IMG/VR virus record: IMGVR_UViG_3300025151_000388
Location: 1-20,517 of that record
Origin: a virus
Length of the DNA: 20,517 nucleotides
Reading direction: 5' to 3' (one strand)
The position numbers and the translations under genes were made by a program. Below the pieces are notes generated by a model, which saw only the letters and a program-made list of their open reading frames with translations, was not told the DNA's origin and did no database searches. Position 1 is the first letter of the stretch. Every line of letters starts with the position of its first letter. Positions 418-13,277 of the stretch are shown here, in pieces.

Positions 418-462
418 ATTATAACACATGGCACTAGGTTTTCAACCATATATGTGCCAGTT
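418..462 (-). promoter_or_regulatory. Box-type promoter 1 (AACTGGCACA - TTGAAA - TATAAT)
   Basis: On the minus strand the box AACTGGCACA (462-453) is followed after 7 bases by TTGAAA (445-440) and after a further 16 by TATAAT (423-418). The predicted start falls at about 411, on the ATG of the DUF6267-like gene, so the mRNA would be leaderless or nearly so. The box also pairs with a downstream GTGCCA (434-429), and GGTT/AACC pairs inside, so a transcript reading in from upstream could fold into a hairpin here. Confidence 0.6.
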
Positions 463-541
463 TGTAAAGTGGTTGGGCGGTAGTTGAGTACGCAACTGTT
501 TGAACTACCATTAAGTATGTTGATCTAGAATTAACTCTCAT
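434..541 (-). CDS. Possible 35-residue ORF, doubtful
   Basis: An open frame runs from an ATG at 541 to a TAG at 434-436 and would encode a 35-residue peptide starting MRVNSRSTYLMVV and ending AHIWLKT. It sits downstream of the structured RNA core and its last codons overlap the AACTGGCACA promoter box. The bases before the ATG (TTGGGTGT) are at best a weak ribosome site. I recognise no family. It may be a real microprotein translated from the 3' part of the same transcript, or chance. Confidence 0.2.
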   Translation of the reverse strand: MRVNSRSTYLMVVQTVAYSTTAQPLYKLAHIWLKT

Positions 542-702
542 ACACCCAAGAGAGTGTCAGGGAGCGGGGCGAACTTATCTGAGTTTCACTCAGGCGCCCA
601 AATTTACCTACTAGGAATCGCTTACACCTGTACCCCTACTAACTACTGATCTAGCAGTGCTGACGCTCGACTTTCGGGTAGTAGAACCGCATATCCCTGA
701 CA
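464..702 (-). ncRNA. Candidate structured small RNA
   Basis: This stretch between genes is richer in G and C than its surroundings and has no convincing coding frame over its first 160 bases. On the minus strand TGTCAGGGA (702-694) pairs perfectly with TCCCTGACA (563-555), closing a domain of about 148 bases. Inside, GGGCG (599-595) pairs with CGCCC (571-567) and encloses CTGAG/CTCAG (593-589 and 583-579) with a UGAAA loop. CTACTA/TAGTAG and ACTG/CAGT pairings are also possible. Downstream, ACTCTC/GAGAGT (555-550 and 539-534) and GGTAGTT/AACTACC (509-503 and 485-479) form two more hairpins. A box-type promoter at 708-752 predicts a start at about 701, exactly at the 5' arm of the closing stem. 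The 3' end is unknown. No tRNA, tmRNA or known ribozyme core could be recognised. Confidence 0.6.
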
Positions 703-707
703 TTCAT

Positions 708-752
708 ATAATAATCCATTGACATATAATTACAACCACCTGTGTGCCAGTT
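708..752 (-). promoter_or_regulatory. Box-type promoter 2 (AACTGGCACA - TTGTAA - TATTAT), for the small RNA
   Basis: AACTGGCACA (752-743) lies 7 bases before TTGTAA (735-730), which lies 16 bases before TATTAT (713-708). The box begins just after the stop codon of the 63-aa gene. No gene follows for about 160 bases, only the structured RNA whose closing stem starts where this promoter predicts transcription to begin. Confidence 0.6.
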
Positions 753-754
753 TA

Positions 755-946
755 TTAAATGTCACAATCAGGGTTGACAAACTCTCTCTTTCTCTTTACT
801 TTTGTTGTATTAATATCAATTAAATCTTCTAACTCTTCAATAGAATTGGCGAGGTTGTCATCATTTTTCTCTTCAGAATAGAAAAATAATGCTTCACTTA
901 ACAAGTTGAATTGTTTATCGGTTAATGTTACATTGATTTTATACAT
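755..946 (-). CDS. 63-residue protein of unknown function
   Basis: The last gene of a four-gene unit. Its ATG (946) lies one base after the stop of the upstream oxygenase gene, and ATGAGGTAAT just before it supplies a GAGG ribosome site, so translation is probably coupled. The product starts MYKINVTLTDKQFNLLSEAL. It has an amphipathic, acidic middle (residues 24-47) and a basic patch KVKRKR near residue 50. There is no signal peptide, no membrane segment and no motif I recognise. It resembles the small hypothetical proteins that are numerous in early T4-like phage regions. Real-gene confidence comes from spacing and the ribosome site, not homology. Confidence 0.8.
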   Translation of the reverse strand: MYKINVTLTDKQFNLLSEALFFYSEEKNDDNLANSIEELEDLIDINTTKVKRKREFVNPDCDI

Positions 947-3453: not shown

Positions 3454-3499
3454 ATAATAGTATAATGTAAAATTGTTTGCAACTGTATGTGTGCCAGTT
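3454..3499 (-). promoter_or_regulatory. Box-type promoter 3 (AACTGGCACA - TTGCAA - TATTAT)
   Basis: AACTGGCACA (3499-3490) overlaps the stop codon of the 99-aa gene. It is 7 bases from TTGCAA (3482-3477), which is 17 bases from TATTAT (3459-3454); an alternative -10 is TATACT (3464-3459). It drives the 40-aa acidic protein gene. Confidence 0.6.
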
Positions 3500-4614: not shown

Positions 4615-4643
4615 ATTATAATATATCAATTATTGTTTGTCAA
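4615..4643 (-). promoter_or_regulatory. Perfect consensus sigma70-type promoter (TTGACA-N17-TATAAT)
   Basis: TTGACA (4643-4638) and TATAAT (4620-4615) are exact and 17 bases apart, with the -35 inside the last codons of the upstream oxygenase gene. It predicts a start at about 4608, just before the leader hairpin. The same perfect pair occurs at 8891-8919. Consensus host-type promoters of this kind are expected for immediate-early phage transcription. Confidence 0.8.
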
Positions 4644-5327
4644 GTTTTCTTTTGTATCAAATGCCTTCATTCTCTCCTGTGGGGATAGATTGGTACATCG
4701 CCAACCATAGTCTCCATTGGTTACGATTGTAGGCATCATATTCATTGATAGTGTGATTCTATTAGAACCCTCGTTGTTGTTATATCCATGTATGATCTGA
4801 GCAGGGAAAATCATCAATTCACCCTCATTCACCTGTATTTGATTGTCCTGATTGTAGTCAGTAAACTTATTCCTCATTAATCCCAGAGCAGGCATCACAG
4901 GAAAATATAAACTCTCCTCTCTAGTGAAGTGTGTATTGACATGATCCTTTTCTGGATCAAAGTTTACATAGTATATACAGGATAGATAAGAATTACTATG
5001 GAAATGTGGGTGCTGATACCCGCCTTTGTCACTTATATTAAACCAACTGTCAGTTACTTGTACTGTCTCCTGTATGTAATCGCCTTTGATCTCCTTAGCA
5101 TAGTGTTCTGCTTGTTGTTCACACCAATTTCTAAATCTACCATACTTTATGTCATCATGTATAACTGAGTAGTGACCAACGTGTTTTAATTCTTTTGAAT
5201 TAGTATTATATGATAACTGATTTATCTTTTGTTCTTCTATCTCCGCTAGTATAGTTTCCTTTACCTTGTCGTGGAAAGGGCAAGGTATAATGGCAACGGG
5301 CGTTGGTAGTATGTTTACGACTTCCAT
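4626..5327 (-). CDS. 2OG-Fe(II) oxygenase-like protein, tandem paralogue A
   Basis: A 233-residue protein. The core reads TDSWFNISDKGGYQHPHFHSN, with H108-x-H110, the strand SCIYYVNFD, H180 in PAQIIHGY and R190 in NRITLSMNM. Length and the position of every key residue are identical in its upstream neighbour (5329-6030), marking a tandem duplication. As in that group, the canonical Asp of HxD is His. Hydroxylation of a protein or nucleic acid is the expected chemistry; the substrate is unknown. The ATG lies one base after the stop of paralogue B, and it is the last gene of the operon that starts at 8815. Confidence 0.85.
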   Translation of the reverse strand: MEVVNILPTPVAIIPCPFHDKVKETILAEIEEQKINQLSYNTNSKELKHVGHYSVIHDDIKYGRFRNWCEQQAEHYAKEIKGDYIQETVQVTDSWFNISDKGGYQHPHFHSNSYLSCIYYVNFDPEKDHVNTHFTREESLYFPVMPALGLMRNKFTDYNQDNQIQVNEGELMIFPAQIIHGYNNNEGSNRITLSMNMMPTIVTNGDYGWRCTNLSPQERMKAFDTKENLTNNN

Positions 5328-5328
5328 A

Positions 5329-6030
5329 TTATAATAGAGGATAATCCCATAGTTTACCAGACCTAGATGTAGTCATGGCAGTGTGTCTCTCATCTTTTGT
5401 TAGTGGTTCAATCCTAACCTCATTGATATATCTAGGCATCAAATTACTTGATACTGTTATTCTATTATTACCATAGTTAGTTGTATAACCATGGCAAGTG
5501 TTAGCAGGCCACAGTAACAATGAACCCTCAACTCCTATAACTTCATTGATATGATTATACTTTGTTTCTTTTTGGTTTGTCAACATATATGCAAAGTAAT
5601 TTGGATAATTCATACTGTTGTTAGGACGATAAAAATATGTTGGAGCGTGGACTTCATCATCAAAGTTGACATAATATAAGGCACATATAACGGCATTAAT
5701 ATGATAATGAGCACTCTGACGACCACCACTATCACATACATTTAACCAACTGTCTGTCAATATGAAATCAGATGTATCATAGTTAAGTATGTCTCTAGCA
5801 TATATCTCTGCCTGTATCTGTATCCACTCTCTAAACTCTTTATATTTGTCATCAGATAGAGGCGAGTAGTAATCAAAATGTTCTAATCCTTTTGCGTATG
5901 CGTCAACTTTCTTATGTTCATAATCAATGCCATGATTATTGATCTCCTCAATCATTAATGACTTTACCTTTTGATGCTCAGGATATAATACTGCACCTAA
6001 TTTCAATGGCAATGTATCAACCACTCTCAT
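5329..6030 (-). CDS. 2OG-Fe(II) oxygenase-like protein, tandem paralogue B
   Basis: A 233-residue protein from the ATG at 6030, which overlaps the stop of the gene before it (ATGA). A longer frame begins at a TTG at 6054 but would overlap by 28 bases and breaks the pattern. Core motifs are TDSWLNVCDSGG, H108-x-H110 in SAHYHIN, ALYYVNFDDE, H180 in PANTCHGY and R190 in NRITVSSNL. It aligns without large gaps to paralogue A. Differences cluster at residues 125-165, the loops over the active site, so the two may act on different substrates. It belongs to the oxygenase operon below the DUF262/HNH gene. Confidence 0.85.
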   Translation of the reverse strand: MRVVDTLPLKLGAVLYPEHQKVKSLMIEEINNHGIDYEHKKVDAYAKGLEHFDYYSPLSDDKYKEFREWIQIQAEIYARDILNYDTSDFILTDSWLNVCDSGGRQSAHYHINAVICALYYVNFDDEVHAPTYFYRPNNSMNYPNYFAYMLTNQKETKYNHINEVIGVEGSLLLWPANTCHGYTTNYGNNRITVSSNLMPRYINEVRIEPLTKDERHTAMTTSRSGKLWDYPLL

Positions 6031-6650
6031 TTCTTCGCACCCAAAGGTCCCCAAACTGATTCTAAAAATTCATCAGGTAACATTTCTCTCGGGCAGGCAC
6101 TTGTATTAAAACTCATAGTAATTCTATCCCCATCAGTATTATTAACTCTGCTTCCATGTTCTAACCACGAAGGAAATAGGTATAGATGATTCTCTTTAAT
6201 TGGAATGTCAATCTCATATACTCCATAAGGTGTGGGTTGTATATTATGAATACACATCATATATGGTTTAAGTGGCGATACCACATAAAACTGTCCATGA
6301 TCTCCCTCTGGTAATTGAAGGTAAAAGGCACCACTAATCACGCTAGACTCATGGCGATGTCTGTCTGTGTATCCACCTTTGGGCAGTATATTATACCATG
6401 AACCACTGATGATTGCAGGGTAGTTTCCTATTTTATGATTATAGTCTGTTAAACACTCATGTAAAACGTCCATTATTGGTCTGCAATTCTCGTCATCTAG
6501 TGGGTCCCAACCACCATGAGAACTCACACCATTGACGGCAAGTGAATGTTCATTATTTTTGCCATTCTCTTTGATATGTTTTTTCAGATAATCTAGACCA
6601 GGCGCACCTGAGAGATCATACTCTTCTAATAGTGTAGGAAATAAATCCAT
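6027..6650 (-). CDS. 2OG-Fe(II) oxygenase-like protein (H-x-H type)
   Basis: A 207-residue protein. SGSWYNILPKGGYTDRHRHESS carries H98-x-H100, followed by the strand SGAFYLQLPEG, H165 in PSWLEHGS and R176 in DRITMSFNT, the usual set for Fe and 2OG binding with His in place of the common Asp. It is related to the paralogue pair downstream through the SW-N-GG-H-x-H block but more distant. Its ATG follows the preceding TAG with no gap and its TGA overlaps the next ATG, so it is co-translated with its neighbours. The substrate is unknown. Confidence 0.85.
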   Translation of the reverse strand: MDLFPTLLEEYDLSGAPGLDYLKKHIKENGKNNEHSLAVNGVSSHGGWDPLDDENCRPIMDVLHECLTDYNHKIGNYPAIISGSWYNILPKGGYTDRHRHESSVISGAFYLQLPEGDHGQFYVVSPLKPYMMCIHNIQPTPYGVYEIDIPIKENHLYLFPSWLEHGSRVNNTDGDRITMSFNTSACPREMLPDEFLESVWGPLGAKK

Positions 6651-7172
6651 CTAATTCCACTTACAATAGTCTATGTTGAGAACAACTCTTAAATCTTTGT
6701 CGGTACATGATGTGCCTGCATGAATCAAATCTCCCTCAAACATCACTGCCCTGTTTTCTTTTGATTCTATCTTTTGTCCGTCCTCAAAATATGTATATCC
6801 ATTGTTATCATTGAAATATATCAAACATATATGATAGTTTGGTATGTCAGTAAAGTTTCCTTTTTCATCTTTGGGACCTGAAACATCAACGTGTAAAAGT
6901 TTCTCTTTTATATTTGTTGTTCGAGGTGTAGCATTAAACTTAACTCTGTGTATAGCAAATGGTTTAAGTGATGCAAATACTGGTTTAATCATACCATAAA
7001 CCTCTGATACTGGTTCAGAGTCTATGTAACAACCATGAGTAAATTGTGGGCAACCATCGCCGTCTGCCACAGAGGTAGGAGAATAGTACCAAGGCATACC
7101 CCCACCAAAGACAAACTCTTTGATGGGGTCAAAAACCTCAGTAGGTAGGAAGTTATCGTAAACTTCTATCAT
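6651..7172 (-). CDS. 2OG-Fe(II) oxygenase (H-x-D, prolyl-hydroxylase-like)
   Basis: A 173-residue protein starting MIEVYDNFLPTEVFDPIKEF, the helix-turn typical of prolyl-4-hydroxylase-like phage proteins. The iron ligands are H94-x-D96 in LLHVDVSGP and H151 in DLIHAGTS, with R162 in LRVVLNIDY for 2OG. YHICLIYFNDNNGYTYFEDG supplies the core strands. Unlike the next three genes it keeps the canonical HxD. The ATG overlaps the stop of the DUF262/HNH gene (ATGA), which couples the nuclease-like protein directly to an oxygenase. Hydroxylation of a protein side chain is most likely from the family; the target is unknown. Confidence 0.88.
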   Translation of the reverse strand: MIEVYDNFLPTEVFDPIKEFVFGGGMPWYYSPTSVADGDGCPQFTHGCYIDSEPVSEVYGMIKPVFASLKPFAIHRVKFNATPRTTNIKEKLLHVDVSGPKDEKGNFTDIPNYHICLIYFNDNNGYTYFEDGQKIESKENRAVMFEGDLIHAGTSCTDKDLRVVLNIDYCKWN

Positions 7173-11007: not shown

Positions 11008-11954
11008 TCTAAACCATATACTAATTCTAACTTAGTTCCATCATGTCCAGCAGTGATAATGGTGGCACCATGTACTGCCTTTGGTTGTTGTTCCCATACA
11101 GATATTTCATTGTACCAAGTATCTGATAACCAGTACCACTCTTTTGTCTTTGATGAGATAGTGGCGACTGCATTATTATGCGATTGGTGTCTCTCAAGAT
11201 ATACTGGAAAATTGTCCTGAGAAGTAGTTCCCTCTGGAGCATCTTTCATAAACTCTGAAGATAAGGCATATCCAATTTCTTTTACCAATCCAGTTGAATC
11301 AAACTCAAGTATTATCTCTACTAAGTTATTCTCAGCATCAACTATGAGTGTATCAACCAACTGACTTACACCTTGAATATTTTGATATATCTTTGTATTC
11401 GATCTAGTGCCATATAATTTCAATACTTCCTCTGGTATGGAGGTAGATTTCTTAATTAATCCTATTCTAATAGACTTATCTACTCTACTCATGTCTGCTG
11501 TAGATATTTCATAGTCCCCAAACTCATCAGGTTCTAGTATCTTCAACACTTCTCTCAAAGATGAAGTGTCAGTATTACCTGTAACCTCAGTTGCAAGTTG
11601 ACATAAGGCATCAATCGTAGGGTCGATTAGTGGGGGTCCCTCAAATGACACAATCTCTTTTGTCATCACTCCATTTTTAAAATATAGGAATTTATATTTG
11701 TTTAGATACTTGAATAGTACATTATTTCCTAAATGTCCATCAAAGTATTCATACTGTTCTACACCTGTGGGGATATTTACTTTCAATCCATACTGTGAAA
11801 CTCCGCCATCAGTCTTTATCAGTCCTATGGAATCATTAGCACTGGAAAACAAGTCAGGATACATCTCTGCTAACTCTTTTATGGCATCTTTATCCTCTCC
11901 ACTAAACAAATTAGGGTAGTTAGATATTGACATTAAGTGATCTAAATTAACCAT
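11004..11954 (-). CDS. 316-residue protein of unknown function, virion block
   Basis: The last gene of the leftward virion block. The start at 11954 has a strong AAGGAAAGGA ribosome site and overlaps the upstream oxygenase gene by 13 bases. The product starts MVNLDHLMSISNYPNLFSGE and looks like two alpha/beta halves; the second (about 200-316) contains LVEIILEFDSTGLVKEIGYALS, KEWYWLSDTWYNEISVWEQQP and a Gly-Asp-rich end. There is no signal peptide or membrane helix. I recognise no family. Lying between oxygenase genes and an adhesin gene, it may be a substrate, partner or small virion part; that is inference. Its TAG overlaps the TAA of the opposing adhesin gene. Confidence 0.8.
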   Translation of the reverse strand: MVNLDHLMSISNYPNLFSGEDKDAIKELAEMYPDLFSSANDSIGLIKTDGGVSQYGLKVNIPTGVEQYEYFDGHLGNNVLFKYLNKYKFLYFKNGVMTKEIVSFEGPPLIDPTIDALCQLATEVTGNTDTSSLREVLKILEPDEFGDYEISTADMSRVDKSIRIGLIKKSTSIPEEVLKLYGTRSNTKIYQNIQGVSQLVDTLIVDAENNLVEIILEFDSTGLVKEIGYALSSEFMKDAPEGTTSQDNFPVYLERHQSHNNAVATISSKTKEWYWLSDTWYNEISVWEQQPKAVHGATIITAGHDGTKLELVYGLD

Positions 11955-12523
11955 TCCTTTCCTTTTTCGTAACTAAACCAAGTGATAACAGAATATCTTT
12001 CTCCTTTAGTGACAGGTGTGACTTCATGTTTAAACAAGTGATTACTTGGATATACATGAGCAGAGTTGCCACCTGAGAGAATATTATATCTACCCCAGAA
12101 TGTGATCCAACCACCTTCATAGTCATCATTAATGGTATATGATGTAGTTACTGAACCAGCATCAGCGTCAACGTCTGCATGGGGAGATAGATAACCGCCT
12201 TCTGGGTATTTACATAACCAGTATCCTGAGTATTTATTGTAAATAGGGTCTGTTGGTAAAGTATCTCCGTAATGGTGGTATATTTGAGGCATCAACTTAA
12301 TGTGTGCCTTATGAATCAAATCAAATATCTCTCCATGATGAGGTTCTATCTCTAGTGATGATCTCCAACCTTTTATATTGTAATAATTTCCAGGCGGAGG
12401 GGAATCTGGTTCAGGCCAGTCTAGTCCTTCAACGAGTTCGAGCAATCTTCTATGATCGAGTGTAGAAAGAACATTCCCAGAATGAAGGATATAGTGAAGT
12501 AATCCGTTTGTTTCATTCAGCAT
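11942..12523 (-). CDS. 2OG-Fe(II) oxygenase (prolyl-4-hydroxylase-like)
   Basis: A 193-residue protein. YPEGGYLSPHADVDADAG holds the HxD pair H115 and D117, GGWITFWGRYNILSGG supplies the core strands, and HLFKHEVTPVTKGERYSVITWF holds H166 and R176. This is the classic arrangement of P4Hc-type enzymes that hydroxylate protein side chains, and all predicted metal and 2OG ligands are present. It overlaps genes on both sides (11 and 13 bases), so it is produced together with the DUF6445-like protein. Being in the tail-protein transcription block, a virion protein is a plausible substrate, but nothing in the sequence shows this. Confidence 0.9.
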   Translation of the reverse strand: MLNETNGLLHYILHSGNVLSTLDHRRLLELVEGLDWPEPDSPPPGNYYNIKGWRSSLEIEPHHGEIFDLIHKAHIKLMPQIYHHYGDTLPTDPIYNKYSGYWLCKYPEGGYLSPHADVDADAGSVTTSYTINDDYEGGWITFWGRYNILSGGNSAHVYPSNHLFKHEVTPVTKGERYSVITWFSYEKGKEWLI

Positions 12524-13277
12524 TGATGTCTAAGTTTAAAGAATCAGCAAATACAAATCCAGACATTGAAACTCTGGGTTTGTCTTTATACCACCCATTT
12601 TTCATCACGGCAGTGTGCCACAAGAATGAGGGATATATTATCATTCGATTGAACTTCATAGGAACATGATATTGTTCTTCCCATACTTCATCAATGAGCA
12701 TGGTGTCATTATCTACAAGTTCAGTTGCCTTTGGAGAAAAGTCATACACCCACTCTTTTAAGTTCCAATACTCCTCGGTTCTTTTGAATGGTTTGTGTAT
12801 GTTCTCTGTATTAGTTAGTCCAGTTGCACTATGGGTGAAAAATGAAGTTCCGCCTTCACCATCACTCAAATATAATACTGTGGCATATACTGCTGGGTCT
12901 ATGTGTGGTTGTATAGAGATTCTAGGAACTTCCCTATCACTATACATGGCATTGATTTGATAAAATACTTTTATTAAATCTGGTTCTATGTTCTTAAAAT
13001 CTGTACACTTTTGTATCATGTGTCCAGTTAGTTTAGACACTTCCGCCAGATTAAGATGTATATTTGATTGGTAGCCTGGAAATACCTCGTCTGGATCTCC
13101 CTTATGCAGTTCATTGTATTGCATTGGCAGTTTCTCCACCACCTGATTTATGAAGTCATGTGGATTCTCCAACACATCATCAATGATAATGATGGGGTGT
13201 GATTCTAGTTTTGAGATTTCATATTTTAATTCATCATTGACTCTGTGAGTCTTATCATCAATAATATTCAAATTCAT
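12513..13277 (-). CDS. DUF6445-like 2OG-Fe(II) oxygenase-fold protein
   Basis: A 254-residue protein with IIIIDDVLENPHDFI near the start (residues 29-43), then QPHIDPAVYATVLYLSDGEGGTSF (H125-x-D127), then MIIYPSFLWHTAVMKNGWYKDKPRVSMSGFVF (H221, R235). The layout agrees with DUF6445, an oxygenase-fold family I know from marine bacteria and phages; the assignment is from memory. All three metal ligands and the 2OG arginine are present, so it is probably active. It starts 3 bases after the 69-aa gene and overlaps the next oxygenase gene by 11 bases. Confidence 0.85.
   Translation of the reverse strand: MNLNIIDDKTHRVNDELKYEISKLESHPIIIIDDVLENPHDFINQVVEKLPMQYNELHKGDPDEVFPGYQSNIHLNLAEVSKLTGHMIQKCTDFKNIEPDLIKVFYQINAMYSDREVPRISIQPHIDPAVYATVLYLSDGEGGTSFFTHSATGLTNTENIHKPFKRTEEYWNLKEWVYDFSPKATELVDNDTMLIDEVWEEQYHVPMKFNRMIIYPSFLWHTAVMKNGWYKDKPRVSMSGFVFADSLNLDINAE

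Follow-up and report, generated by a model that had tools for sequence, protein, structure and literature searches.

R1, a conserved RNA structure that very probably forms the 5′ leader of mRNAs in T4-like cyanophages

We describe an RNA, here called R1, encoded on the minus strand (702 to 555) of a 20,517-nucleotide stretch of viral DNA (the window, IMG/VR record IMGVR_UViG_3300025151_000388). Compensatory base changes among its relatives give good support to R1 as a real RNA family with a conserved secondary structure. The order of promoter-like sites, R1 and coding sequences indicates that it is very probably the structured 5′ leader of an mRNA in a T4-like cyanophage. Taken as a whole, the data are best explained if R1 is a 5′-terminal leader fold with a module port, which probably protects phage mRNA from decay that depends on the 5′ end; we give this complete reading a probability of about 0.5.

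The window covers part of the genome of a T4-like cyanophage; of its annotated relatives, Synechococcus phage S-SSM7 is the nearest here (81% identity across 78% of 1 kb). R1 is located in an intergenic gap of 325 bp (430-754), which the preliminary description had measured at 333 bp, between a 63-codon gene (755-946, minus strand) and, downstream on the same strand, a DUF6267 gene (1-429; Pfam PF19782, E 2.3e-58). The latter is cut by the end of the window and starts at the ATG at 429, or at the ATG at 411 as the relatives have. The gap is locally richer in G+C, as had been remarked, with a content of 0.43-0.48 versus 0.29-0.36 in the adjoining sequence. Between R1 and the DUF6267 gene, the remainder of the leader (430-554, minus strand) contains two additional hairpins along with a second promoter-like site (TTGAAA at 445-440, TATAAT at 423-418). 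These hairpins had been counted as part of the candidate RNA; they are present at 464-554 but fall outside the conserved core at 555-702. At the same gene junction of S-SSM7 (L001), the slot of R1 is filled by a different, shorter stem-closed sequence of 60 nt, and R1 is therefore not obligatory for the DUF6267 gene. The S-SSM7 record annotates a hypothetical gene of 33 amino acids in this slot, which may be spurious. Elsewhere on the minus strand of the window, a run of genes (948-1544, 4626-7172 and 11942-13277) resembles 2OG-Fe(II) oxygenases by eye.

When 234 bp of the gap served as query in a sensitive DNA search, P-SSM2, P-SSM5 and four single-cell marine viruses gave matches, all without annotation. 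By blastn, P-SSM2 and P-SSM5 were the only cultured phages to match, the other matches being single-cell marine viruses (AG-345). Scanning IMG/VR with a 16-base conserved string yielded at least 120 stretches. Once a few chance matches in other sequence are left out, R1 has at least about 115 relatives, which come from marine phage contigs, P-SSM2 and P-SSM5, and at least 111 gave a complete automatic parse; since the relatives were collected with one exact string, these numbers underestimate the diversity of R1. The R1 patterns had no match in the 84,980 bacterial and archaeal genomes scanned, nor in plasmids. Phages appear to be the carriers of R1, although the search pattern favours close relatives. 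A bacterial or archaeal origin was considered and rejected because these scans of genome collections were empty. One contig (L026) carries two copies of R1 within 1.1 kb, at 1211-1340 and 2120-2268.

The fold was evaluated from compensatory changes in two alignments. For 29 relatives aligned by MAFFT without structure, double-sided compensatory change was observed in 22 of 31 pairs, and 94.9% of the cells were paired versus 78.9% in shuffled sequences. The alignment of 99 distinct sequences, which was fitted to the model, gave 25 of 31 pairs and 95.5% of paired cells versus 77.9%; sliding the partners by 1 to 3 columns left at most 52% of its cells paired. The MAFFT alignment is the fairer test because the larger one was fitted to the model, and both agree. 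The window scores 115.3 bits (E 6.6e-32) with the R1 model, but is itself among the 29 sequences of this model. Folding energy, one of the checks suggested at the outset, did not single out the region: z was +0.51 for 431-702 and -1.71 for 555-702 (10 of 200 shuffles equally good), and -0.26 for the relative L022. As these values are unremarkable and not significant, one sequence alone could not settle the fold. Substitutions in the closing stem of homologues, another check set beforehand, do compensate. Chance as the origin of the fold was ruled out by covariation, though the single-sequence folding energy lends no support.

The R1 core comprises five helices (P1 to P5; all coordinates are on the minus strand). 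From 5′ to 3′, it runs through P1a, a bulge, P1b, P2, P3 with the port at its tip, a near-invariant strand, the 3′ strand of P2 (P2′), the joining strand GUAAAUUU, P4 carrying P5, and the 3′ strands of P1b and P1a. The closing stem P1a (TGTCAGGGA at 694-702, pairing with 555-563) is the 9-bp perfect stem of the preliminary description and sits inside a 12-nt inverted repeat that is 92% complementary. All eight counted pairs of P1a showed double-sided change, with 93.8% of the cells paired in the 99-sequence alignment. On the 5′ strand only, a bulge of about 3 nt (691-693), placed by the alignment of relatives, separates P1a from P1b (GCG at 688-690, pairing with 564-566), which covaries at two of three pairs with 96.6% of cells paired. 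P2 is the clearest helix of R1: its strands CTACTA (679-684) and TAGTAG (608-613) covary at all six pairs and 99.1% of the cells are paired. P3 (CCC at 676-678, pairing with 634-636) shows double-sided change only in a few relatives. Its tip, which has no conservation among relatives, holds a plugged-in module of about 40 nt here (637-675) that varies between relatives.

The near-invariant strand GTACAGGTGTAAGCGATTCC (614-633), recognized in the alignment of relatives, lies between P3 and P2′; the core has it as GUUCAGGUGUAAGCGAUUCC, with GUACAGG.. in the window. Sixteen of its bases are conserved in the collected loci by selection, because they served as the search pattern. The joining strand GTAAATTT (600-607), in which TAAATTT is invariant, leads to P4 (599-595 with 567-571, the whole element spanning 567-599). 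All cells of P4 are paired and three of its pairs covary. It carries the hairpin P5 (580-592; 592-588 with 584-580), which has an invariant GTGAAAC tip, 96% of cells paired and three covarying pairs. P4 and P5 correspond to the GGGCG/CGCCC and CTGAG/CTCAG arms seen in the first inspection of the sequence. The 3′ strands of P1b (566-564) and P1a (563-555), located by covariation, close the structure. Altogether 45 alignment columns are invariant in R1, many of them unpaired, and 16 of the 45 lie inside the search string.

No match to Rfam 15 (4227 families; covariance models at the gathering cut-off) was found in the window; the gap region 430-780 had none up to E = 10, and cmscan gave none in 14 related loci. 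The families covered included tRNA, tmRNA, ribozymes, introns, riboswitches, manA, wcaG and PhotoRC-II, and ARAGORN predicted no tRNA or tmRNA in the window. The proposal of a new RNA family, read on the minus strand, is thus upheld by the covariation and these negative searches. No account of the R1 family was found in the literature, although most subscription papers and preprints were outside the reach of the search and this absence is not proof. Structured leader RNAs of phages are a known kind; what is new is a leader common to many unrelated genes and carrying nestable modules.

R1 is preceded on the minus strand by a promoter-like site (TTGTAA at 735-730, TATTAT at 713-708), with transcription predicted to start at about 701-702. 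These boxes are those initially proposed, but they are no rarer in shuffled sequence, so that the promoter call rests on conservation among relatives. Among the matches listed, a TATAAT-like hexamer ends exactly 7 nt before P1 in 39 of 70 non-redundant relatives and 6 nt before it in 10, a group to which the window belongs; the remaining 21 of the members listed have no -10 hexamer at 6-7 nt. Because the hexamer lies 6-7 nt before the stem in 49 of the 70 relatives listed, the closing stem is the predicted 5′ end, which is consistent with the initial idea that it begins at the transcription start. In 11 further members another conserved box (GGGG..GACGCATAAAGTGT..) stands directly before P1. 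A box reading GGGGGGACGCATAAAGTGTCCTTAAGGT or similar, ending at the closing stem, may belong to a different promoter class (loci L004, L018, L019, L021, L022, L103, L104, L110, L115 and L122). By eye, many relatives also have a terminator-like hairpin just upstream.

The promoter-like site is itself preceded by a dyad (TGTGACATTTAATAAACTGGCACA, 743-766, minus strand; half AACTGGCACA at 752-743), which recurs in the window. Further copies are found on the minus strand at 3499, 3303 and 462, each followed by a -10 hexamer 39-40 nt on; in the last of these, the half AACTGGCACA (462-453) accompanies the second promoter-like site. The spacing between the consensus GTGnCAnTT-nn-AAnTGnCACA and the -10 hexamer downstream of it is fixed: among 574 non-redundant AAnTG[GT][CT]ACA sites in all loci, the offset of the hexamer is 39 in 238 and 40 in 77. 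The dyad resembles an operator, at about -52 to -43, that a transcription factor of the phage or of its host would recognize. Two direct repeats, 453-471 and 743-761, were considered as insertion borders and rejected, as they are these promoter-upstream elements. Behind a dyad promoter, at about 3426-3304 (minus strand), the window has a small acidic reading frame (MDFELEFDEFDGQEQDDW...), and a similar-looking small protein follows R1 in L070 and L071.

Leaders starting with R1, or with a second scaffold termed R2 (see below), were compared with those of other promoters. Same-class promoters without R1 or R2 have a median leader of 19 nt, versus 187 nt for R1 and 170 nt for R2. The predicted pairing of nucleotides +1 to +10 was 0.42 for promoters without R1 or R2 (0.49 after shuffling), and reached 0.69 in R1 leaders and 0.82 in R2 leaders. 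As the control promoters are less paired, a paired 5′ end is special to R1 and R2 leaders, which follows in part from the way R1 and R2 are defined. Among dyad-class promoters that lack R1 and R2, the 41 with leaders of at least 80 nt have paired starts as well (0.66 versus 0.48 after shuffling); hence further leader RNAs probably exist.

The surrounding genes indicate to which transcript R1 belongs. Among the matches listed, the upstream gene is on the strand of R1 in 104 of 107 loci and the downstream gene in 76 of 92, the exceptions to the latter being frames that are short and doubtful. The distance from the R1 core to the AUG of the following gene is only 21-43 nt in 19 non-redundant loci, four of which have a Shine-Dalgarno-like motif. 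The preliminary description had taken R1 for a small RNA. This is doubtful, because promoter, R1 and coding sequence are on one strand in the relatives and the linker to the AUG is short in these 19 loci. A free RNA acting in trans would have its own promoter and a G+C content above that of its surroundings, as R1 does, and the second promoter-like site between R1 and the gene means that R1 could be a separate transcript in the window. However, no terminator-like site is present between R1 and the DUF6267 gene within the window, and a same-strand gene follows in most loci; we consider a trans-acting RNA very unlikely.

At least 20 unrelated gene families are found downstream of R1, which therefore looks like a general mRNA leader and not a gene-specific switch. 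This bears on the idea that R1 senses a small molecule as riboswitches do. The leader position, the junction rich in invariant bases and the long joining strands are compatible with such a sensor, and other presumed cis-regulatory RNAs occur in cyanophages (manA, wcaG and PhotoRC-II; PMC2864571). Nevertheless, the downstream genes have no evident pathway in common, no terminator adjoins R1 in the window, the start site is not evidently sequestered and no Rfam family matched. The set of downstream genes disfavours a metabolite switch in particular, and the sensor is distinctly unlikely.

The port in P3 accepts 12-229 nt, and its content is sequence-unrelated between relatives. At the locus of the window, phages that have these neighbouring genes in common (68-97% identity in the aligned parts) carry at least four unrelated P3 modules. 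The inserts are assembled from recurring, self-contained pieces, which are nested in each other and in R2. The latter is a second leader scaffold with its own insertion site, found in P-SSM2 (55815-56116, L129) and at 57 sites in the loci. Its closing stem (e.g. GGGAAACAAA/TTTGTTTC) begins about 7 nt after the -10 hexamer in most of the 57 sites, where transcription is predicted to start, and its core reads CTGAC-insert-GAAGCAG..ACATGA. An R2-like core was found inside P3 of R1, and R1 inside the insertion site of R2 (L074, L108); R1 is consequently not always 5′-terminal. Module B, of about 52 nt, has a conservation of 0.87-1.0 in 79 distinct contexts, falling to about 0.4 outside its borders, and its apical stem shows compensatory change (CTCTG/CAGAG versus CTCAA/TTGAG). 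It occurs in P3 of R1, in another module within R1, in R2, in module D, or free in the leader. P-SSM2 and P-SSM5 have different modules in one leader, with flanks 95.5% and 98.3% identical. The differing leader of these closely related phages lies at L005 2699-3000 and L006 2699-2955.

The sharp borders of module B in its 79 contexts, the nesting in both directions and the different modules of P-SSM2 and P-SSM5 despite their nearly identical flanks are also compatible with the modules, or R1 itself, being selfish insertion elements or self-processing RNAs for which the leader is the least harmful site. This seems highly improbable, as no mobility protein, reading frame or transposase was seen with the modules, R1 keeps its place between promoter and gene in most loci, the covariation shows that the fold is under selection, and no ribozyme or intron family of Rfam matched. 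Fungal mitochondria contain mobile double-hairpin elements, which are short, structured repeats scattered in many places. The R1 modules likewise occur in many places, but nest in defined leader loops beside promoters. Tentatively, and with the odds rather against it, we propose that the mRNA 5′ ends constitute a combinatorial kit, in which scaffolds sealing the 5′ end (R1, R2 and others) offer ports for swappable, recursively nestable modules, whose exchange among genes and phages outpaces the divergence of the genes.

What such a leader might do is suggested by bacterial mRNA decay. Base pairing at the 5′ terminus stabilises mRNA in E. coli, and the RppH of B. subtilis requires at least two unpaired 5′ nucleotides (PMC3997798). 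R1 follows directly behind the promoter-like site and precedes a gene. If transcription starts at P1 as predicted, its fold would seal the 5′ end and slow those decay pathways, of the RppH, RNase E or RNase J type, that need this end to be free; the AU-rich and mostly Shine-Dalgarno-less stretch would stay open for the ribosome. The invariant junction strands may keep the fold in place or serve as the binding site of a protein from host or phage, and the modules in the port may tune it. In Prochlorococcus MED4, infection by a cyanophage increases the RNase E of the host, and antisense RNA is believed to shield the phage transcripts (PMC9692554). We judge a protective function of R1 against mRNA decay to be a possibility somewhat short of even odds.

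A bare stem-loop would suffice for 5′ protection, and since R1 keeps 45 invariant columns a more specific task is suggested. With so many invariant bases unpaired, a bound protein is the strongest rival of the protective role, or an addition to it. R1 would then be a common landing site for a host or phage RNA-binding protein, as a regulon-wide translational operator or an RNP seed, the invariant strands forming the protein site and the modules accessory sites. One regulator for many genes would be expected to recur before many gene families, as R1 does, and a leader structure bound by protein is already known from T4 gene 32 (PMC3014915). Yet no candidate protein emerged, and with its end 21-43 nt before the AUG, the core lies mostly outside the initiation site, which operators as a rule overlap. 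We regard this explanation as rather unlikely.

The phage-linked RNAs GOLLD and ROOL offer a comparison. Like R1, they are structured RNAs of unknown function (PMC12286853), but they are much larger and are not short leaders, and R1 has no Rfam match. The manA, wcaG and PhotoRC-II RNAs are closer to R1, as structured leader RNAs of T4-like cyanophages and marine metagenomes (PMC2864571); R1 differs from them in giving no cmscan match, in preceding unrelated genes and in carrying nested modules. The T4 gene 32 leader pseudoknot is likewise a structured leader of a T4-type phage gene (PMC3014915), but it serves autogenous control of one gene, whereas R1 is common to many. The 5′ stem-loops of the E. 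coli ompA/papA type (PMC3997798) have in common with R1 the pairing at or near the mRNA 5′ end, ahead of the site where the ribosome binds. Each of them is a simple hairpin belonging to one gene, in contrast to R1 with its five helices, invariant junctions, at least 20 gene families and a module port; stabilisation by R1 is putative.

We found no earlier description of a phage leader family that is common to many unrelated genes and carries nestable modules. As R1 is present in P-SSM2 and P-SSM5, which are cultured and have a cultured host, transcript starts, RNA structure and mRNA half-life are directly measurable. The finding is relevant to the survival of cyanophage transcripts while RNase E is raised in the infected host, and the RNA modules form a natural collection in which the folding of nested structures can be studied. 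If the combinatorial kit is real, it would be an RNA-level counterpart of domain shuffling and may serve to adjust or vary the expression of phage genes, or to escape a host factor that targets RNA.
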